From a virus, in IMG/VR virus record IMGVR_UViG_3300032236_000866, positions 1 through 47,780 of that record: DNA of 47,780 bases, one strand, 5' to 3'. This document shows positions 20,132-41,942 of this stretch, one piece after another. The position numbers and the translations under genes are program-made. Below the pieces are notes generated by a model, which saw only the letters and a list, made by a program, of their open reading frames with translations, was not told the origin of the DNA and did not search any database. The stretch's first letter is position 1; each line of letters begins with the position of its first letter.

Positions 20132-20780
20132 CTACATTGAAGCGAGCTTAGAGAAATAATTTAGAGCATCATCTCCATCTTCATCATCCTCGTCTTCTTC
20201 ATCTTTAGAAACTGTTTTAGAACTAGTTTTAGAAGTAGTTTTTTTGCTTTCTACAAGCTTCTCATAGTCGTCTTCAGCTTCTTCTTCAACTTCAGGGTCA
20301 ACTTTTTTACGGGTATCTCCACGAAGTCCAAGAACAAGGTCCAGACGGTTCTTTAGTTCATCATAAGACTTGAACTTACTTTCATCAATAAAATCGTTAA
20401 GATTATACATTGATTTATAAAGTTTTTCAAGTTCTTTATCATCACCATCTAGAAGTTCACTAGGCTTATCAAAATTAGATTTATCATAATTCCAATATCC
20501 ATCAACTTTACAGATTTTCAGGTTGAAGTCTGAACCTTCCCACATATCAAAAACATTGATTGCAGTCTCGCCCTTAAACTTAGGACGGAGAGCTTCTTCA
20601 ATCTTTTCCCAAATCTTCTTACCATACTTGTAAAGAAATACCCTTCCATTGTTGGCAGGATTTTCTGGGTCATCAAGTACATAGATGTTAGAGTAATAAG
20701 AAAGCTTTCTCTTACGGTCTCTTACAATATTTTGCTTTTCTTTGCTACCAGTGTTCCAGTCTTCACGATTATGGTCGCAA
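20132..20780 (-). CDS. 32: gp32 single-stranded DNA-binding protein, exon 2
   Basis: Exon 2 supplies the last base of a split Val codon and then 215 codons, starting 'CDHNREDWNTGSKEKQ', continuing 'LSYYSNIYVLDDPENPANNG', 'FLYKYGKKIWEKIEE' and ending in a long acidic tail ('DEEDEDDEDGDDALNYFSKL'). These match the T4 gp32 core and acidic C-terminus, which recruits replication partners. Read alone, this exon would look like a short ORF from Met 20545. Joined to exon 1 after removal of 20781-21965 it gives a 313-residue protein (T4 gp32: 301). It coats ssDNA in replication, repair and recombination. Transcription ends at the hairpin at 20101-20125. Confidence 0.9.
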
Positions 20781-20914
20781 CCTTTATGTTCGTTAGTGTT
20801 CGTTAATCACTAACCGGGACTTACCCAGCTCATATTTTCATATGAGAGCAGACTATATCACACACCTAAAATATAGGTGTCTCCGCATTTTGAGATACTT
20901 ATCTCTACTCCCGG

Positions 20915-21859
20915 TCAAGGGATAGTCGTTGAACCTTCCTCAAGTATATTTGAGGCTTGGCTGCTGATTGCCTTGTGTAAAATAGATAAATACTTATCTT
21001 CATTTTTTAGAGTTCTATCTTTAGTTACATCTTTAGAATGTATTACTAAAAATATATGGTTGTATCCTTGATTAATAGAAGATTTATGCTTAATGATATT
21101 CTCTTCAAGATTAATATTAAAAGTGTATTCACTCTTTACTTCTATTAATAGATTTTTATAATATAAATCAGGATAATATTTTTTATCTTCAGGAAGATTT
21201 ATTCTAGGAACTTGGTCCCCAGTTTTTATTTCAGTTATTTCTATAAGTTTAGATAAAAGTCTTATAGCAATATCTTCATATCCTTGAACTCTAAAAGTTA
21301 TTCCACCACACTCAAAAACTTTATTTGAGTTTTTATATGGAGTTGGTTGATAATTATTTTTAATTTTAGTCTGTTTTGATTTTTCAACTATATTTTCAAT
21401 ATCCTGAGAAGTTCTTCTTTCCCATTGTCGTTTTGCTTTTTCTGAAAAATAATTTTTTCCATATTTAGAATGATATGATAATATTCTTTTTTGACTTATC
21501 ATATCTTTATATTCGTCAGACCAATTAGATTTGGTTTGCTTACTTTTTTCTATAAAAGATTTTTTCTTTTCCGGATTATTTACAAAACGATTTTTTACAC
21601 ATTCTTTATGTTCTTTACTTTTATTTTTACATCCAACAGAACAATAAATCCTGTAACCCTTATCTATCTGATGAAACTTTGTTGAGTTATTGCAGTATAA
21701 ACATTTACCAATATCACCGATGTAAGTTAGGTAATATTCTTGAGAAGTAATATTAACTTTCCTAAGATAATTTAACATACCTCTTAAAGTTGAGTAATAT
21801 TGTTTATTGATTTCACAATAAACTCCTTTTTCAGTTATTAAGGGATTGATATTTTCCAT
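20915..21859 (-). CDS. Intron-encoded PD-(D/E)XK homing endonuclease
   Basis: The 314-residue ORF lies wholly inside the gp32 intron. Residues 53-77 form a zinc finger (C53, C56, C73, C77). Two helical repeats share 'EKSKQTK' (about 104-110 and 159-165) and may bind DNA. The C-terminal domain starts 'FRVQGYEDIAIRLL' (E195, D196), followed by 'YYPDLYYKNLLIEVKSE' (D231, E240-V-K242), the order of a PD-(D/E)XK/Vsr-like nuclease. It probably cuts intronless gp32 alleles to spread the intron. Its stop codon lies in the R/P7 region of the ribozyme, so coding and catalytic RNA overlap. A late promoter box lies 23 nt before the ATG. Confidence 0.85.
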   Translation of the reverse strand: MENINPLITEKGVYCEINKQYYSTLRGMLNYLRKVNITSQEYYLTYIGDIGKCLYCNNSTKFHQIDKGYRIYCSVGCKNKSKEHKECVKNRFVNNPEKKKSFIEKSKQTKSNWSDEYKDMISQKRILSYHSKYGKNYFSEKAKRQWERRTSQDIENIVEKSKQTKIKNNYQPTPYKNSNKVFECGGITFRVQGYEDIAIRLLSKLIEITEIKTGDQVPRINLPEDKKYYPDLYYKNLLIEVKSEYTFNINLEENIIKHKSSINQGYNHIFLVIHSKDVTKDRTLKNEDKYLSILHKAISSQASNILEEGSTTIP

Positions 21860-21882
21860 AATAGTTGGTTTATCTCACAAAC

Positions 21883-21889
21883 TATTTAG
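21883..21889 (-). promoter_or_regulatory. Late promoter box CTAAATA inside the intron
   Basis: CTAAATA on the minus strand within the intron, 23 nt upstream of the endonuclease ATG. The spacing is the same as for virion genes in this window. It would allow endonuclease expression late in infection, independent of the gp32 message, as is known for the td intron endonuclease I-TevI of T4. Confidence 0.65.
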
Positions 21890-21965
21890 TCATTTTACAT
21901 TTAGGTATCCCAGCAGTTAACGGAGTTTTCACTATAAATTACTCTATAGTGCCGCTTACGCATAA

Positions 21966-22258
21966 ACGGGACACTTACGGCCACCAAGAGTAGTAGGGCA
22001 GTTATCAATCAGCCATTGTCCTGTAGGACCCTGGAATGCGTGATTAAACACCGAAACATACTCATCTTCCCATTCTTCTAATCGAGCAGGAAGAAAACGA
22101 ATGGTTGCCTGACCAATACCCGCTTTAGTGAGGGTTGGTTTCCACAATCTATCGTCTTCATTAGAACTCCCACCTTCATTAAGTTTATCAACTTGCTTAA
22201 GAAGCTTTTCAGTGAGTGAACCAGATTTTGACTTTTTTTTCAAGTCTGCAAAAGACAT
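21966..22258 (-). CDS. 32: gp32 single-stranded DNA-binding protein, exon 1
   Basis: Exon 1 encodes 97 residues plus two bases of codon 98. It starts 'MSFADLKKKSKSGSLTEKLL', the basic N-terminal cooperativity segment of gp32, and continues with 'DDRLWKPTLTKAGIGQATIR' and 'FNHAFQGPTGQWLIDNCPTT', ending 'RKCPV'. Without splicing, translation stops two codons later at TAA. With splicing the motif becomes CPVC, matching the zinc-binding region of T4 gp32. A GGAG ribosome-binding site precedes ATG 22258. The first gene upstream is 87 nt away, and the gap holds a hairpin leader. Confidence 0.9.
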
Positions 22259-33043: not shown

Positions 33044-33826
33044 TTATTCCCTAGTTTCTGCTATTCTTCCTAAATATGGGTCAAACTCCATAAGCTTTTC
33101 AATAGATAGATCACTTCCACTTTCATTCCAAAATTTTAAAAGACTATCGTAGCTCTGTTTATGAAAAATATCAATATGTTCAGGATGAATAGAAGAACCT
33201 AATGCAATCTTATATAAAAATAATGGAATTGAATAAGTATTCCCTGAGTTATAGATTAAATCATCTGCAACTGCGCGAGGTTTCACTCCATTATCAAGTT
33301 TATATTTATCCCCACGAATATGATGATTGATTATTTTTTGTGCGTGATGCCTAGTGATAATATATGCAGCAGTTGAGAAATCATTTACAAATCTTCTATG
33401 TAGAGTTATATGAAGAGGTCCAGTGCAAATAATTGCCAGTTGAACTACATCCCAATCATAAGGAATTCTAGAGTAAAAATCAGACCAAGAGAAGTTCCAA
33501 TTCTGTACTGTTTGAAAATCTACATCATCTTCCATAATGATAGCACAAGGACTATCGGAAGTTGTCATCCAATGATTTATTGCTTTAAGATGTGATGTAA
33601 TGCATCCAATTTCACCGGAAGTCATATTGTCAGGATAACGCCCTTTGATAATATGGCTTAGATCATCTTCACGACCATCATAAGCAGAGATACGAGTATA
33701 ATTTTTAATTTCCCAATATTTAAATTGATCTTCCATATACTCATTCCTTTCAGGTTGACCATCTAAATTTAAATAGTAAACCGGAGGAAGATTTTTAAGT
33801 TTGTATGTAGATTTATTTTTATCCAT
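33044..33826 (-). CDS. GT25-family glycosyltransferase
   Basis: The 260-residue protein has 'LPPVYYLNLDGQPERNEYME', 'YTRISAYDGRED', 'TSGEIGCITSHLKAINHWMT' and 'CAIIMEDDVDF', the sequence pattern of LPS glycosyltransferase family 25, with the EDD metal-binding motif. Members add sugars such as galactose to LPS or to protein-linked glycans. It is the last gene of the glycan cluster and overlaps the previous gene by 8 nt. The donor and acceptor cannot be told from sequence. Confidence 0.85.
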   Translation of the reverse strand: MDKNKSTYKLKNLPPVYYLNLDGQPERNEYMEDQFKYWEIKNYTRISAYDGREDDLSHIIKGRYPDNMTSGEIGCITSHLKAINHWMTTSDSPCAIIMEDDVDFQTVQNWNFSWSDFYSRIPYDWDVVQLAIICTGPLHITLHRRFVNDFSTAAYIITRHHAQKIINHHIRGDKYKLDNGVKPRAVADDLIYNSGNTYSIPLFLYKIALGSSIHPEHIDIFHKQSYDSLLKFWNESGSDLSIEKLMEFDPYLGRIAETRE

Positions 33827-34637
33827 TATACTTTTTAAGATATTTTTGATTTGAATAGTATTGCTTAAGTTGGTCTTTATTCATTTTTTGAATAGTATTC
33901 CATAAGTCATTATTTTTTTGCATATGGGGATTATTGAACCAAGAGTTCTCAGTCCTCTTATGCTCCAAATGATAGATAACTGAATCAATTCTAGATACAG
34001 TATAACCCAAAGTCGTGAATCTGTAAAATCGTTCCACATCTTCTGGTGCATATGCAACAAAATTTTCATTCTCCATACCACCATCAATATAAACTTGGCG
34101 ATTGAAGAATTGAACAAATCCATATTGTGACATATAAAGTTTAGATTTTTCTTCTAATACTTTAAAATTAAAATCATAATTTAAAAAATCAGATACAAGT
34201 TCATCATCAGCAAATACTTGTTTCTGATAATCTCCATATCCATAAGGATAAACAACATCAGATTCTTTACTTAGAAGCAAATTATATGCAGACACATAAG
34301 ATTCTATGGGAAGTAAAATATCACAATCATAATTAACAACCACCGAAGTATTTGCCAACATCAACATATCATTTAAAACTCTTTGCCTATGAAATGAAGG
34401 TGAATAAGATTGTTCAAATATATGAGTAAGAGATAAAATATCATTCTCAAGGTATTCTTCTATTTGTGGCAAGGCATCTTTTTTAAAAATTGATTCCTTA
34501 TCAACTTCATGAACAATAATGTTTGTATCAAAATTGGACATTAAGAAGCATAATGTAGTAATTACATTTCGGAGTCTATCGTCAGATTCAATTCTGATTG
34601 GAACTATAAAAGTTGCATCTTTAAGATCAATTTTCAT
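33819..34637 (-). CDS. GT2-like glycosyltransferase (GT-A fold)
   Basis: The 272-residue protein begins 'KIDLKDATFIVPIRIESDDR' and has a metal-binding-like 'VVNYDCDILLPIESYVSAYN', then 'VVYPYGYGDYQ' and a C-terminal 'YAPEDVERFYRFTTLGYTVS', 'VIYHLEHKR'. The last part is the N-terminal galactosyltransferase/GT27-C-like segment seen in many GT2 relatives. The predicted fold is GT-A with a nucleotide-sugar donor. It overlaps both neighbours by about 10 nt. It likely adds one sugar in the glycan made by this cluster. Confidence 0.75.
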   Translation of the reverse strand: MKIDLKDATFIVPIRIESDDRLRNVITTLCFLMSNFDTNIIVHEVDKESIFKKDALPQIEEYLENDILSLTHIFEQSYSPSFHRQRVLNDMLMLANTSVVVNYDCDILLPIESYVSAYNLLLSKESDVVYPYGYGDYQKQVFADDELVSDFLNYDFNFKVLEEKSKLYMSQYGFVQFFNRQVYIDGGMENENFVAYAPEDVERFYRFTTLGYTVSRIDSVIYHLEHKRTENSWFNNPHMQKNNDLWNTIQKMNKDQLKQYYSNQKYLKKYNG

Positions 34638-35379
34638 CAGGATACTCTCTATTATTTTTATATTTTTCAGTTACATACTCATATTCATTTCTATTAACTG
34701 ACCAACTACCTTCTGGATGATTAATTTGCATATCATAAGTGACACGATTACTACTTACTCTATCTGGATGTTCTCTATTTGAAACCAAAATATCTTCCAA
34801 AATATGAGGCATTCCATAGGACATTCGCATTCGATGATATAAATCAGTATCAATAAGCAATCTAATAGTTTCATCCATATAAAGTTTGCACTCATTTAAT
34901 GTAACAAAACAAGAGGGACTTCCTAAAAGATTTCTACCTTCAAGCATCATATCAGTCCATCTAGGAATCATTGGTCGATTAAATGATTTACCATCAGGTG
35001 TATGATTAAATCCATGCATCATCCATTTGCATTGAGTTTTATCAAAAGTGTCTTTAATCTTTTGTAATGCAAATGAATCAACGAATAAATCATCCTGGTA
35101 GATGATTTTTAAAATTCTACCTTCAGCAAATTCTAAACAACAATTTGTATTCGGTGCCTGATACCCTCTACCATTTTCATTTCGAACATAAGTGATTTCA
35201 AATTTTTTAGAACTTTTTTCACAAAAATTATAAATTTCATCATCTTTACTATGATCAGAAATTACAATATCATAATCAGTAAATGTTTGATATTCAATTG
35301 TATCAAACAATTCTGAAAGGTACTTAACTCCATCCCCATAAAATTCATAAGTAGGAATACAAATAGAAATTTCAGACAT
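34627..35379 (-). CDS. GT2-family glycosyltransferase
   Basis: I use ATG 35379, which shares a base with the upstream stop (TAATG); a GTG 15 nt further up is less likely. The 250-residue product starts 'SEISICIPTYEFYGDGVKYL', continues 'YDIVISDHSKDDEI' and 'GRGYQAPNTNCCLEFAEGRI', then 'LKIIYQDDLFVD', the classical GT2 nucleotide-binding and DxD region ('YQDD'). It is an inverting transferase of unknown specificity, in the middle of the glycan cluster. Confidence 0.85.
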   Translation of the reverse strand: MSEISICIPTYEFYGDGVKYLSELFDTIEYQTFTDYDIVISDHSKDDEIYNFCEKSSKKFEITYVRNENGRGYQAPNTNCCLEFAEGRILKIIYQDDLFVDSFALQKIKDTFDKTQCKWMMHGFNHTPDGKSFNRPMIPRWTDMMLEGRNLLGSPSCFVTLNECKLYMDETIRLLIDTDLYHRMRMSYGMPHILEDILVSNREHPDRVSSNRVTYDMQINHPEGSWSVNRNEYEYVTEKYKNNREYPDEN

Positions 35380-36161
35380 TAAATTTTTACCCACCTTTCA
35401 GGAATAATATCAGAAGTATTATGCTGTGCGGTGTATCCACTATCACCAAACCAACGAGATGGTGCAATTACATTATCATATCCAGATAACCAAGCCCCCC
35501 ACCAAGAAAATGATGAGTTAGCAATGATATGATGAGAACACATAGACATCAGGCACATATCTACAAGATTCCACTCAGATTCAGAAATCATAAATCTATC
35601 GGGTTTAAATAAATCTTGTTCTTTACACCATTGTATATCATCAGAGAAAATAAGAACTGGAAGATTGGAATCAAATTTACTCAGCGCCTCCACATAGTAT
35701 TCTAAAGGACAAGGAGGGTGTTCTACAGATTTTTGTACATAATCAGTTCTACGAACATGTAAAGAGATTACTTCATCAAAATTAAACGCTTCTATACAAG
35801 GATTTAAAATTTTTGATTTAAATGTAAAGTCCTCCCGAATACTATCTGCAATATGTGAAAAATACTTTTCAGTTTGAAAATACCCGAATAGATTTATATT
35901 ATTCTGACATTCATCAACATATTTTTGAGAATAATTATATTGTTTTTCTTGATAATAATTGCCAGATAGAAATTTTTTATTTTTTAAATTTGGAAGAGTG
36001 AAAGCTTCAAATAATTGATGGTTCTCCCATTCATTTTTAAAATTTGATTCGGGGATACAAAATTCATACCCTTTAGTTTTGGCAATGCCACGAAGTGCAG
36101 CATATTGAAACATTTGATTTCCAAGTCTACCTTGGCTACCGATGTGATTAAAACCAATCAT
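35379..36161 (-). CDS. GT11-type alpha-1,2-fucosyltransferase
   Basis: The 260-residue protein has 'GRLGNQMFQYAALRGIAKTK' at the N-terminus, the GDP-fucose-binding 'ISLHVRRTDYV' motif, and 'MCSHHIIANSSFSWWGAWLS', all signatures of family GT11. It transfers fucose from GDP-fucose onto galactose-type acceptors. No GDP-fucose synthesis genes are visible in this window, so the phage may use a host nucleotide sugar. It overlaps the DUF5672-like gene by 4 nt (ATGA). Confidence 0.9.
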   Translation of the reverse strand: MIGFNHIGSQGRLGNQMFQYAALRGIAKTKGYEFCIPESNFKNEWENHQLFEAFTLPNLKNKKFLSGNYYQEKQYNYSQKYVDECQNNINLFGYFQTEKYFSHIADSIREDFTFKSKILNPCIEAFNFDEVISLHVRRTDYVQKSVEHPPCPLEYYVEALSKFDSNLPVLIFSDDIQWCKEQDLFKPDRFMISESEWNLVDMCLMSMCSHHIIANSSFSWWGAWLSGYDNVIAPSRWFGDSGYTAQHNTSDIIPERWVKI

Positions 36162-36832
36162 AATTGTGTATTTTTTGGTAAATAATAATGAAATCCAAAG
36201 GGAGTTATTCCTACAGTTTCTTCAATAGATTTTTCGTGTGAAAATTTTGCCGCAACTTCTACTGGAGCAAATTTACATCCACATCTTTCGTATATATGAC
36301 GATTATGAACACAAATATTTCCGTCTTCAGCAAAGTTATTTGCATTCATATGTTTATAAAAATCACCTTGATTAACATTCCATTCAATGTATTCATGTTT
36401 AGGGACATCCAAAAGCTTCTTACTTCTCAAACTAAATCCACCATTCCCAACCCTTTGATGCTTGCCAAATGGGTCAACATAAGCATTTTCAGTATATTGC
36501 CATGGTGCGCCAATATAGTCATATTCTAACCAAGAATCATCCCACTTATCGGGATTGACTACAAATCCATCTGCCTGAATTATTAAACAATGGGAAGTAT
36601 GTACATGATTTGTTAAATTATAAATGCAGTAGTAACTATAATCATTAATATTTTTAATCTGATAACATTCAGAATATTCAATGAAATCTGGGAGGTCTTT
36701 TGGTCTTTCATGAGTGACTAATCTTACTGCACCAAAATTAATCCTTTCAATACTTTTACTAAAAGCAAAATAGGTTTGAGGGAGATTTACTGAAGATACA
36801 CAAATGAGAGTTACATTAGGGAGATTAATCAT
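36158..36832 (-). CDS. DUF5672-like glycosyltransferase
   Basis: The 224-residue protein has 'LPNVTLICVSSVNLPQTYFA', 'LIIQADGFVVNPDKWDDSWL', 'YDYIGAPW' and 'RVGNGGFSLRSKKLLD', the signature set of DUF5672 proteins, which have a GT-A-like fold and are linked to glycan synthesis. 'QADG' likely replaces the DxD motif. It overlaps both neighbours (8 nt and 4 nt). The sugar is unknown. Confidence 0.8.
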   Translation of the reverse strand: MINLPNVTLICVSSVNLPQTYFAFSKSIERINFGAVRLVTHERPKDLPDFIEYSECYQIKNINDYSYYCIYNLTNHVHTSHCLIIQADGFVVNPDKWDDSWLEYDYIGAPWQYTENAYVDPFGKHQRVGNGGFSLRSKKLLDVPKHEYIEWNVNQGDFYKHMNANNFAEDGNICVHNRHIYERCGCKFAPVEVAAKFSHEKSIEETVGITPFGFHYYLPKNTQL

Positions 36833-37763
36833 TTTTTTTAATTGAATTATTGACTATTTTATCATAAAAATTCTCAATATCCAAATTATCAAGATTAATC
36901 TCCTGCATATTATTAAATAAGTATTCATTAACAATAAGAAGATCTTCGGTGACATCAGAGTAATCGTCCACAAAAAGAACTGGATAGTCCTTCATAAGAT
37001 ACTCTAAATAATCATTCTTCTTCATGATAGGAACTCTCCTCATATAAAGAACTTCCCAATTTCTATGACAATCTATTGCATTTCCGATAGGACATATAAC
37101 AAATTTACACAAATTAATATCATTTAGATATTCAGAATATTCTTTTCTAGATGTGCTGGTAATAGCCCAACTTTTATTTTTAAAAATATCAACAATTCCT
37201 ATTCGGTCGTTGTTAGTATTTTCACTATGATTGACATATAGTAGATGAGTAGGAATAAAAAAACTTTGACTATTCACTAAACTCGTTAGTATATTGATCC
37301 TATCATCATTTAGTGACAATTTTCTCTGCACACCATAAGGAATTGGATTAACCTTCCCACCATAAGAAATTGAATTTACTGCATTTATACTTAAAACATT
37401 ATTTGGAATTTTATCAAAAATATATTCATCAATAGGAGTGTCTTCAAGATTTGTAAAGATTATAAATTTTTTATCAGGAAAGTTTGAGCATAAACTCAAA
37501 AGATCACTTTCCTCCATCAAAGAATTTACATAAAATCTATCATAAGATTTTACACTTTCAATTTCTCTTTTATAGAGTCTTATATTATCAATAAAAAGAG
37601 TCATGCACTCTTTGGTTTCAAATAAAACCCTCTCAACAAATTCTATATTTAAAAGATTTGCATTTTTCATAAAATGCTCAGGAACATTTCCAAAACTTCC
37701 CGATTGGTCTCCAAAAGAATAATCACATAAATTTGAAAGACTTACCCCATCAATTGGCTTCAT
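36825..37763 (-). CDS. Exostosin-like (GT47) glycosyltransferase
   Basis: The 312-residue protein has a C-terminal domain with 'LCKFVICPIGNAIDCHRNWE', 'VLYMRRVPIMKKNDYLEYLM' and 'PVLFVDDYSDV', matching the exostosin-type GT-B domain, in which the 'E' of 'HRNWEVL' is conserved. The N-terminal half is less conserved ('KKFIIFTNLEDTPIDEYIFD'). It overlaps the neighbouring methyltransferase by 14 nt and the DUF5672 gene by 8 nt. A role in surface or virion glycan synthesis is inferred from the domain and cluster. Confidence 0.72.
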   Translation of the reverse strand: MKPIDGVSLSNLCDYSFGDQSGSFGNVPEHFMKNANLLNIEFVERVLFETKECMTLFIDNIRLYKREIESVKSYDRFYVNSLMEESDLLSLCSNFPDKKFIIFTNLEDTPIDEYIFDKIPNNVLSINAVNSISYGGKVNPIPYGVQRKLSLNDDRINILTSLVNSQSFFIPTHLLYVNHSENTNNDRIGIVDIFKNKSWAITSTSRKEYSEYLNDINLCKFVICPIGNAIDCHRNWEVLYMRRVPIMKKNDYLEYLMKDYPVLFVDDYSDVTEDLLIVNEYLFNNMQEINLDNLDIENFYDKIVNNSIKKND

Positions 37764-38466
37764 TTTTTCTTAAAACTGAAATATAGTATCCATTATGCCA
37801 ATCACTATTCTGCATAGTATTATTTTCGGGAGGATATGAATCATCATCCGTTGTTCTGATTTCAACAGAAAAAATCACATCAAGATTATTTTTTTCAATG
37901 GCATTTAATGTTCCATCCCTCACCTTTTTCCAATTCCAATCGTCACAAATAAAGATAAACTCATTATCCAATGAAGGTTGCGCGAAGACTAACCCATCAT
38001 ACTGGTCCTGTTCTTGATGAGGCCCATCAAAAAAGTAGATATTATATTTTCCAATTTCATCATATTTAATATTTCTAAAATCACTTTCTTCAAAAACTAT
38101 TTCAATATCAGAACATTCATCTGCACACTTTTGAATATTATCACAAAAGATAGTTTTAGGTCCGCCAAATTCAGACCAATTGTCTATGCAATATGCTTTA
38201 ACTTTATTATTATAAATTGCAGAACAAGAAGTAGACCCTTTCCAACAACCAACTTCAAGATATCTCGCATCTTCCGATAAAGACTCTATTAAATTATTAA
38301 TAAAATATCTATATTTTTTTCCAGACATTCCATCCATTTCTAGTATCCAATTTGGAAGTTTTATATTTTGTTTCAAAAGAGAGTGTTCTATTAAATCAAT
38401 ATATTTACTATTTTTATTTTTTTTATTTTTTAATTTATTTAAAAAAATACCATTTTTTAATTTCAT
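37750..38466 (-). CDS. Class I SAM-dependent methyltransferase (type 24-like)
   Basis: I use ATG 38466, overlapping the upstream stop as ATGA (238 residues); a TTG 15 nt upstream is less likely. The product has a lysine-rich N-terminus, then 'DARYLEVGCWKGSTSCSAIY' (motif I), 'VKAYCIDNWSEFGG', 'YNIYFFDGPHQEQDQYDGLV' and 'FIFICDDWNW'. This is the class I fold of the methyltransferase-24 type, which often methylates sugars. The position in the glycan cluster supports a sugar O-methyltransferase role. Confidence 0.8.
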   Translation of the reverse strand: MKLKNGIFLNKLKNKKNKNSKYIDLIEHSLLKQNIKLPNWILEMDGMSGKKYRYFINNLIESLSEDARYLEVGCWKGSTSCSAIYNNKVKAYCIDNWSEFGGPKTIFCDNIQKCADECSDIEIVFEESDFRNIKYDEIGKYNIYFFDGPHQEQDQYDGLVFAQPSLDNEFIFICDDWNWKKVRDGTLNAIEKNNLDVIFSVEIRTTDDDSYPPENNTMQNSDWHNGYYISVLRKNEAN

Positions 38467-39056
38467 TTTTTGATTCCCCAAAAGTAAAGATCTTCACAAG
38501 GATTGATGTAGGTCCTCATGTTTTTAATAAAATCGGTAGGATTATCATAATCTTCAGTGCTATGAAATTCATACTCCGAAAAAATTTCATCAAAAGATTC
38601 TTCAAAAGACCCCCTAAAATCTTGCTCATCAAGATTTTTATAATATTCCCATCCAATACCTACAGTAAGAGGAGAAGAACCTGAATCAGTCCTAGTTGTT
38701 CCATGCTCCTTTCTTCCCGTTGTAGCACAAGTAAATAAAACTAGCCCATTACTTTTACACATTCTTACCATATTTGCAAAAGTTTGTGCCCAATATGGAT
38801 TGTGCTCAAAACATTCTCCAGAAGTGCATACATCATATGATTCATCTGGAGCATCATACTCTTGTCCTTGACATACTAAATCAACTCCTTTACCTTCACC
38901 TACATCAATTCCCAAATAATCGCAATTTGAAAAAAACGACCTCATAGTTCCATTGATATCTAAACTTCCAATTTCAAGGACTTTTACATTCTCAAACAAA
39001 TTTGGAAATTTATTTTTTACATATGAGATAAAATCTTGTTGTGTGCTATGTGCCAT
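38463..39056 (-). CDS. Class I SAM-dependent methyltransferase (type 11-like)
   Basis: The 197-residue protein has motif I 'VKVLEIGSLDINGTMRSFFS', 'CDYLGIDVGEGKGVDLVCQG', and 'ESYDVCTSGECFEHNPYWAQ', then 'GLVLFTCATTGRKEHGTT'. This order is typical of methyltransferase-11 domains, often found in glycan clusters of cyanophages. It overlaps the next gene by 4 nt and follows the upstream one by 4 nt. The substrate is unknown. Confidence 0.8.
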   Translation of the reverse strand: MAHSTQQDFISYVKNKFPNLFENVKVLEIGSLDINGTMRSFFSNCDYLGIDVGEGKGVDLVCQGQEYDAPDESYDVCTSGECFEHNPYWAQTFANMVRMCKSNGLVLFTCATTGRKEHGTTRTDSGSSPLTVGIGWEYYKNLDEQDFRGSFEESFDEIFSEYEFHSTEDYDNPTDFIKNMRTYINPCEDLYFWGIKK

Positions 39057-39060
39057 TATT

Positions 39061-39636
39061 TTATTTGGTAATTTTTAAAATATGTAATCCCGGTGCCCAA
39101 AGTTCAAGCAAATTTTCAGTTTTTTGTTTTCCGGACATATTAAATGCTTCATATTTAGTGTATCCCAAAGATTTTGCTAAATCAAGCAAAGGGGAAACCC
39201 ATTCATTTTTTGTAATATCTTCAACTACTAGAATTCCACCATTTTTAAGTTTAGAGTAATATTTCACAATTACCAGTTCAAAAGATTCGTAGGTATGAGG
39301 ACCATCATCAATTACAATATCAAAATAAGAATCTTCAAATAAATTTAAGGCATCTTGGGAATACATATCCATTTTATAACAAGTTGTATTCTCTATAGGT
39401 ACAAAATTTTCAATTTCTCCACCATAGATATTAGAATCAGGGTGGAAATATTCTTTCCATAATTTAATAGAACCTCCGCCACGAATTCCAATTTCTAAAA
39501 TATTAATTGGAGATTTAGTAAGAGGTTTAAAATGTTTTTCATAAAAATGGTCATAATATCCTAATTGATATTTGTCAGTGCAATATCCTCCTTGCAAATA
39601 TCTTTCGGATAAGGTAATTGTTCTTTTTCTTGCCAT
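39061..39636 (-). CDS. Class I SAM-dependent methyltransferase (cephalosporin-hydroxylase-like)
   Basis: The 191-residue protein starts 'ARKRTITLSERYLQGGYCTD' and has 'YYDHFYEKHFKPLTKSPINI', 'LEIGIRGGGSIKLWKEYFHP' (motif I), 'YFDIVIDDGPHTYESFELVI' and 'GGILVVEDI'. This is the sugar O-methyltransferase pattern seen in macrocin and cephalosporin-hydroxylase-like proteins. It is the first gene of the glycan cluster. No late box or good sigma-70 promoter is visible directly upstream; only an AT-rich stretch is seen. Confidence 0.82.
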   Translation of the reverse strand: MARKRTITLSERYLQGGYCTDKYQLGYYDHFYEKHFKPLTKSPINILEIGIRGGGSIKLWKEYFHPDSNIYGGEIENFVPIENTTCYKMDMYSQDALNLFEDSYFDIVIDDGPHTYESFELVIVKYYSKLKNGGILVVEDITKNEWVSPLLDLAKSLGYTKYEAFNMSGKQKTENLLELWAPGLHILKITK

Positions 39637-40936: not shown

Positions 40937-41812
40937 TCAGAACTTGATACCTAGACCAGTTGTGAATACTGGGCTATAAGTTCCATTAGAAACACCATAG
41001 CTATTTGCAGCGTTGGTAGTAGGGAACTTGAGATCAGCAAAACCAACCAAAGAATTAGTGATGCGACCTTCAATACCCAGAGCAAGAACAACTTGACCCT
41101 GTGAACCAACGGCAGACTGATAGTTAGAAGAAGTATTGTTTACAAAGGGAACTTGATAACCAACTCCACCATAAACATTAGCACGACTTACTTTAGTTCC
41201 ATCGGCAAGAGTCTTGCGTGAGATGGAATAATCATAAGTAGCAAGTGCTCCACCGGCAGCACCAATCTGACCAGCAGGGCTACCGACAAAGTTAGCATAA
41301 GGGCGAACTGAAACTTCATTAGCCCAAACAGTAGCAACAGGAAGACGCGCCTGAACGGTAGCACCAGAAACTGTGCGGTTAGCACTATACCCATTACCAG
41401 CAACACCTTGTTGGTCCAGAAGAACACCAACACCAACATACTGACCAACGCCTTGTGCCTTACGAGCAGAAGCAACTTCCAGAGTCGTTACACGAGCATT
41501 AGTAGCAGCCAGTTCCTTAGAGAACTCAGCACGAAGAGCAGCCGCAGTGCGAGCATCTTCAGCACTGGAGAACTCGGAAATGCGGTCCAAGCAAGCATTC
41601 GTCAGAGCAGCCAGCTCAGCACGAGTAGCAGCCTGAGCAGGCTTCAGAGTGCCATTAGGATAGCCAGCAAGGCAACCATAACGAGCATTCAAGTTGGTAA
41701 TTGCCTGATATGCCCAGTTAGTGGGAGAAACATCAGAGAATTGACCAGCAAATGCAGGGGCGGTCATCGCAGAAACGGCAACGGCACCAGCAAAAATAGA
41801 TTTAATTTTCAT
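40937..41812 (-). CDS. Cyanobacterial-type SLH-domain outer membrane porin
   Basis: The 291-residue protein has a signal peptide ('IKSIFAGAVAVSAMTAPAFA', cut about residue 22), an SLH domain ('FSDVSPTNWAYQAITNLNAR', 'GCLAGYPNGTLKPAQAATRA', about 25-75), a helical linker (85-115) and a beta-strand-rich C-terminal part ending 'FTTGLGIKF' with a terminal Phe, as in outer-membrane barrels. SLH-porins are the main outer-membrane proteins of cyanobacteria. The gene is clearly more GC-rich than its neighbours, with codons such as GCC, CTG and CGT, which indicates host origin. It has a T4 late box TATAAATA upstream, so its expression is now under phage control. Confidence 0.88.
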   Translation of the reverse strand: MKIKSIFAGAVAVSAMTAPAFAGQFSDVSPTNWAYQAITNLNARYGCLAGYPNGTLKPAQAATRAELAALTNACLDRISEFSSAEDARTAAALRAEFSKELAATNARVTTLEVASARKAQGVGQYVGVGVLLDQQGVAGNGYSANRTVSGATVQARLPVATVWANEVSVRPYANFVGSPAGQIGAAGGALATYDYSISRKTLADGTKVSRANVYGGVGYQVPFVNNTSSNYQSAVGSQGQVVLALGIEGRITNSLVGFADLKFPTTNAANSYGVSNGTYSPVFTTGLGIKF

Positions 41813-41870: not shown

Positions 41871-41942
41871 AGCGGATGACGTGATTTGAACACGCAACCA
41901 ACAGCTTGGAAGGCTGTGACTCTACCGTTGAGTTACATCCGC
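41871..41942 (-). tRNA. tRNA-Gly(UCC)
   Basis: A 72-nt cloverleaf is complete: acceptor GCGGATG/CATCCGC, D-arm ACTC/GAGT, anticodon stem ACAGC/GCTGT with loop CTTCCAA (anticodon TCC), and T-arm GCGTG/CACGT with TTCAAAT loop. The discriminator is T, and CCA is not encoded. It reads GGA and GGG codons; GGA is very frequent in the AT-rich structural genes here. A sigma-70-type promoter lies upstream. Confidence 0.95.

Follow-up and report, generated by a model that had tools for sequence, protein, structure and literature searches.

A probable mobile group IA2 intron with a PD-(D/E)XK homing endonuclease frame in the gp32 gene of a T4-like cyanophage

The window, that is, the whole stretch of DNA analysed, is a virus record of 47,780 bases (IMG/VR IMGVR_UViG_3300032236_000866). 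Its proteins have a cyanomyovirus affinity, with gp32 reaching at most 58% with Synechococcus phages and PhoH having a cyanomyovirus match at 73%. The gp32 gene lies on the minus strand in two parts, separated by an insertion that holds a further open reading frame (ORF). Three other contigs, referred to here as L006, L007 and L111, are used for comparison. The main features are:
22258-21966, minus strand: gp32 exon 1, 293 nt, residues 1-98, ending CCC GT
21965-20781, minus strand: group IA2 intron, 1185 nt (Rfam RF00028, 35.4 bits; empty site in L006, same site occupied in L007 and L111)
20915-21859, minus strand: putative homing endonuclease ORF, 314 aa, in the P5 loop, with a Cys4 finger, DUF7487 and a C-terminal PD-(D/E)XK domain
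20780-20132, minus strand: gp32 exon 2, 649 nt, beginning T TGC GAC and running through the stop

An earlier note on this DNA, made from the letters alone, had proposed that gp32 is interrupted by a group I intron. It did not mention the 314-aa ORF at 20915-21859, and it placed the exons 1.4 kb apart, a figure reached by measuring as far as the first ATG in exon 2 (at 20545); the actual spacing is 1185 nt. Its prediction that removal of 20781-21965 would join the frames is correct: the 293 and 649 nt join in frame to encode 313 residues and a stop. The joined protein matches the Pfam gp32 family (4.6e-43), PHROG 224 over its whole length (1.2e-108) and solved T4-type gp32 (2e-47), and the CPVC motif restored by the joining falls on the CPVC of T4, as the note had expected. 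An alignment of the joined protein with four Kyanoviridae gp32 proteins, which the note had proposed as a check, runs through the junction without gap or insertion, and the alignment to T4 gp32 is likewise gap-free there. Reading through into the intron instead would end gp32 with CPVYA and a stop, about 3-4 codons past exon 1, leaving a 100-aa stump (…KCPVYA).

The intron RNA was assigned the following helices, with the basis of each assignment in brackets:
21952-21969, minus strand: P1, exon CCGU (21969-21966) with IGS GCGG (21955-21952) (sequence; kept in L111)
21956-21959, minus strand: P10 5' strand GUAA, with exon 2 UUGC (20780-20777) (sequence; kept in L111)
21930-21951, minus strand: P2 hairpin CACUAUA/UAUAGUG (MFE fold of core)
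21920-21925, minus strand: P3 5' strand, with 20886-20881 (MFE fold of core)
21911-21916, minus strand: P4 5' strand CUGCUG (P), with CAGCAG (Q) at 20966-20961 (MFE fold of core)
21892-21905, minus strand: P5/P5a 5' strands CCU and GUAAAAU, with AGG (20973-20971) and AUUUUAC (20983-20977) (sequence)
21860-21886, minus strand: hairpin AAUAGUU/AACUAUU, flush with the endonuclease AUG, z -1.9 (putative sequestration of the ribosome-binding site)
20938-20955, minus strand: P6a hairpin CCUCAA/UUGAGG (fold)
20851-20927, minus strand: P7, GACUA (20927-20923) with UAGUC (20855-20851) (covariation counts)
inside P7, minus strand: P7.1 (20922-20909), GUA linker, P7.2 (20905-20892), P3' and P8 (20880-20862) (covariation counts)
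20829-20846, minus strand: P9 with GAAA loop (fold)
20792-20814, minus strand: P9.2, GUUAGUG/CACUAAC (covariation)

The intron and exon 2 both begin with TT, so that the cut could shift by two bases if it were judged by joining alone. However, only a single position places a U before the 5' site and a G as the last base of the intron, as the group I rules demand. The splice sites proposed in the earlier note are at this position, and its P1, P10 and terminal G all hold in the sequence: the 5' site lies in P1, where exon CCGU faces intron GCGG with a U-G pair, P10 is formed by UUGC of exon 2 and the GUAA immediately 5' of the intron GCGG, and the intron ends in AAAGG (AAATG in L111).

The R and S elements form P7 and a GAAA-capped hairpin forms P9 (CUCAUAU-GAAA-AUAUGAG), both as proposed. 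When folded freely with a shortened ORF loop, the core gives P2, P3, P4, P5, P6a, P7.1, P7.2, P8, P9, P9.1 and P9.2, and the fold of the 3' domain beats all 200 of 200 shuffles (z -3.6). The 3' part can be aligned, at about 70%, to the td introns of T-even phages and to Twort-type introns of Staphylococcus phages. Across ten phage introns, 87% of the helix cells pair, whereas sliding leaves no more than 45% paired; covariation scores 0.44, compared with 0.16 after shuffling. Double changes occur at every pair of P7.2 and at 6 of the 7 pairs of P9.2, and covariation with the td-type and Twort-type phage introns is strong in P7.1, P7.2, P8 and P9.2. P7.1 and P7.2 are linked by GUA (GGGA-GUA-GAGAU at 20912-20901); such a linker was the criterion by which the Pf-WMP3 intron was assigned to subgroup IA2 (PMC3428280), and we therefore make the same assignment here. 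The locus thus combines the U-G pair in P1, the terminal G, a P3-P9 core with an R/S P7, and exon continuity.

The covariance search proposed in the earlier note gave a divided answer. Rfam RF00028 matches at 20829-21055 with an E-value of 6.1e-7 and aligns the R and S elements, but its 35.4 bits are below the curated gathering score of 50 bits, and a scan of the whole window at E <= 0.05 did not list the family. The model scores 28.2 bits in L007 and has no match in the intron-less L006. We do not regard the gathering score as a biological criterion in this case, because Rfam misses phage introns (PMC11878797) and because the ORF here splits the core.

The related contigs show that the presence of the intron varies. 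L006, from another metagenome, carries a gp32 with about 93% DNA identity to that of the window (271/293 in exon 1), from which the intron is precisely absent: its junction reads TGTCCTAT followed directly by TTGCGACC, where the window has TGTCCCGT, the intron and then TTGCGACC. By sequence comparison, L006 is a natural empty site. The L007 contig begins inside the endonuclease; what it holds of the intron is the 3' part, inserted at the same nucleotide as in the window. That part agrees with the window at 328/331 positions, and exon 2 at 592/634 (about 93%; Fisher p 1.6e-5). This is expected under recent homing, but the 180 bases downstream of gp32 are also 98% identical to the window, which makes the contrast suggestive rather than conclusive. 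In the 77-kb viral contig L111, an intron of 1198 nt occupies the identical position, between the exon bases CCCGT and TTGCGAC. P5a has become GUAAUAU/AUAUUAC there, with one compensatory change from A-U to U-A that keeps the helix across the whole ORF. The claim of the earlier note that gp32 is split by a group I intron is therefore borne out by the empty site, by the introns at the same nucleotide in L007 and L111, by covariation and by the Rfam match; these comparisons establish the identity of the intron and its boundaries.

The intron-bearing viruses have CCCGT before the site, while L006 has CCTAT (CCUAU in RNA), giving a weaker P1. The difference may be due to resistance, to drift or to exon co-conversion. 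In the phage collection, gp32 was matched in 2392 records at 2393 places, so that at most one record has gp32 in two places, although short first exons may miss the E-value limit. A megablast search with 6 kb of the window gave no match among phage records, and two scans, one for the intron's exact 5' end and one for the same 3' end together with DHNR codons, also found none.

The intron separates the two cysteines of CPVC, and the earlier note took it to have homed into an unchangeable zinc site. This explanation was rejected. Of the gp32 relatives, 83 extend over the site; CPxC is found in only 10 of these, the other 73 having DP(V/L)(S/G); the proline is invariant and the valine mostly so. 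The site was therefore not chosen for unalterable zinc ligands, although the clade of the window does keep them. It is worth adding that at gp32 residues 96-99, across records L002-L085, the CPVC ligands are mostly replaced by DPVS or DPVG in cyanophage-type gp32.

The protein encoded in the P5 loop has a Cys4 finger (C53, C56, C73 and C77) and matches Pfam DUF7487 (4e-11) and PHROG 3339, annotated 'homing endonuclease' (7.6e-6). The candidate catalytic residues of its PD-(D/E)XK domain are D231, E240 and K242; comparison with its relatives shows these three and E195 to be invariant in 11 sequences. AlphaFold models the C-terminal domain (residues 178-302) with a pLDDT of 95. Its Foldseek neighbours include the R2 retrotransposon protein, cap-snatching endonucleases, PvuRts1I and, from the phage homing enzyme I-Bth0305I, the catalytic domain. 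All of the top matches are of PD-(D/E)XK type, but the best E-value is only 1.9e-3, which places the nuclease in a superfamily and not a subfamily. The predicted structure has the conserved E, PD and ExK elements on an alpha-beta core that characterise the PD-(D/E)XK superfamily.

Relatives of the nuclease were recovered only with looser thresholds and alignments: neither tblastn against phages at E <= 1e-5 nor a single-sequence viral scan gave a match, and the genome contig collection contained no close relative. One relative, Va1, has a TnsA-like Pfam match, and free-standing relatives adjoin gp23 in Vibrio phages. Another lies inside the NAD-dependent DNA ligase gene (ligA) of a huge phage (L088, 2471-3478; L096, 2971-3981), where Rfam finds no group I intron; this insert sits between ...GFR and ...WAIAIKFP and has some 60 nt besides the ORF. 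A further relative lies in an apparent intein (L091, 2179-3447; IMGVR_UViG_3300035698_007621), whose C-terminal end HHYILKNGIVSHN is followed by T, in a phage gene that looks RecA/UvsX-like. DUF7487, listed by Pfam as of unknown function, is probably a family of homing nucleases.

The 3' end of the ORF overlaps the ribozyme core (P5', P4', P6, the 5' strand of P7, and P7.1), so that translation of the nuclease and folding of the ribozyme should be mutually exclusive on one RNA molecule. There are known cases of ORFs that overlap the core, and tight control of their expression has been reported (PMC3984707). The last 25 codons have 93% DNA identity between the window and L111 while the remainder has 64%, as expected where one sequence is both coding and ribozyme. 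In L111, a hairpin of different sequence stands at the same place before the endonuclease start (z -3.8), and in T4 the ribosome-binding sites of intron endonucleases are sequestered by hairpins (PMC2988022). By analogy, the start-codon hairpin probably keeps translation of the nuclease low on gp32 transcripts. A late-promoter motif, TATAAATA, precedes the endonuclease in L111, just before the hairpin. The window has only ACTAAATA there and shows no enrichment of TATAAATA, and escape through a late promoter, as in T4, is therefore a lead only.

We consider it very likely that the insertion is a mobile self-splicing group IA2 intron in the gp32 of a T4-like cyanophage, with a PD-(D/E)XK homing endonuclease in its P5 loop. 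Transcription of gp32 would yield a precursor, within which the intron RNA would fold as a ribozyme; guanosine would attack the 5' site held in P1 at the U-G pair, and joining of the exons would restore gp32. The nuclease would most likely cut intron-less gp32, with repair then copying the intron in.

The most serious alternative is that the ribozyme splices while the endonuclease does not cut, or cuts at another place, so that the intron is now inherited by descent only. Intron-encoded nucleases often decay, as in the T4 nrdB relic (PMC2993671), and the amino-acid identities of the nuclease (57.5%) and gp32 (63.5%) between the window and L111 are similar enough to be compatible with descent. 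We nevertheless hold it unlikely. The ORF is open in both viruses, with D, E, K and all four cysteines kept, a dN/dS of about 0.38 between the two indicates that the protein has been under selection, and presence of the intron varies among close relatives.

Far less credible is a gp32 that works as a two-part, split protein around an unspliced insertion. Mobile endonucleases have split phage genes, the example being Aeh1 nrdA/mobE, as cited in PMC3322345. However, the 100-aa stump would break the OB-fold core and part the CPVC cysteines, exon 2 lacks an early start codon (its first ATG being the one at 20545), and the group I core is complete, with covariation. An assembly chimera or a pseudogene is the least probable reading of all: the window is a metagenomic viral contig, but the same arrangement occurs at the same nucleotide in the independent contigs L007 and L111, and the reading frames are intact. 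A mobile, self-splicing intron thus remains our preferred reading.

The T4 td intron with I-TevI is likewise an IA2 intron of a T4-like phage with its endonuclease in a ribozyme loop, and its 3' domain has about 71% DNA identity to the gp32 intron over 147 nt. It differs in its host gene, in its nuclease (GIY-YIG instead of PD-(D/E)XK) and in having its ORF in P6a instead of P5. The hairpin at the endonuclease start resembles that of T4 (PMC2988022). The intron of Prevotella phage Lak-B1 (L105) has the nearest 5' end, at 86% over 48 nt, and a 3' part at 76%, but its HNH-like ORF follows Q, in P6a, and its P5 is a short hairpin. This intron lies at L105 1352-2130, in an nrdD-looking gene that also holds an intein-like sequence.

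Among cyanophages, the intron with I-PfoP3I in the DNA polymerase gene of Pf-WMP3 is also of subgroup IA2 and in a replication gene, and it shares the GUA between P7.1 and P7.2 and an ORF overlapping the core (PMC3428280). Pf-WMP3 is however a T7-like phage, with a different host gene and an HNH nicking enzyme in P6a. The psbA introns of S-PM2, S-SRM01 and S-CBWM1 are also cyanophage group I introns, and differ in interrupting a photosynthesis gene. Their homing endonuclease is inside the intron (reported for S-CBWM1, suggested for S-SRM01) or free-standing nearby (F-CphI of S-PM2, which carries an Endo VII motif) (PMC8557907, PMC6083498). The homing endonucleases I-Ssp6803I and I-Bth0305I have a fold of PD-(D/E)XK type, as does the gp32 intron nuclease, and the catalytic domain of I-Bth0305I gives a TM-score of 0.65 by target length with its model. 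Neither matches it in sequence; I-Bth0305I uses EDxHD, whereas the gp32 intron nuclease keeps D...ExK and an N-terminal Cys4 finger, with KYG-type repeats in its relatives.

The earlier note gave td, nrdB, nrdD and psbA as the phage genes known to hold introns. This list was too short, as DNA polymerase, terminase, nrdE/nrdF and others have been reported (PMC11878797, PMC3428280). A literature search that covered few subscription journals found no report of an intron in gp32. Group I introns of phages, those of subgroup IA2 in T4-like phages and homing endonucleases carried by introns are all known. What appears to be new, in detail but not in kind, is that an intron in gp32 has its ORF in P5 and that this ORF encodes a DUF7487 PD-(D/E)XK nuclease. 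The gp32 intron extends the hosts of phage introns to an essential gene of replication and recombination, and is a clear phage intron that the Rfam group I model misses at its gathering score. With a natural allele that lacks the intron at about 93% identity, and with two further intron-bearing viruses, homing range and site choice are directly testable. In T4, gp32 is among the proteins reported in intron homing (PMC2988022), so that the element occupies a gene needed for its own spread. Given that gp32 protects a cut and channels its repair, the nuclease may also serve as a weapon against the gp32 of a rival phage. It is a rather unlikely but conceivable proposal that a DUF7487/PD-(D/E)XK lineage moves among group I introns, inteins and free-standing genes, and that cutting of gp32 serves both for homing and as a weapon against co-infecting cyanophages.

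Elsewhere in the window, positions 40937-41812 (minus strand) encode a porin or S-layer-homology protein (68% with S-CREM1, 65% with S-PM2), 33044-39636 (minus strand) is a run of genes resembling glycosyltransferases and methyltransferases, and a Ser/Cys/Leu-repeat frame of low complexity lies at the contig end (4-348, plus strand). A tRNA gene at 41871-41942 (minus strand), with the anticodon loop CUUCCAA, is probably for glycine.
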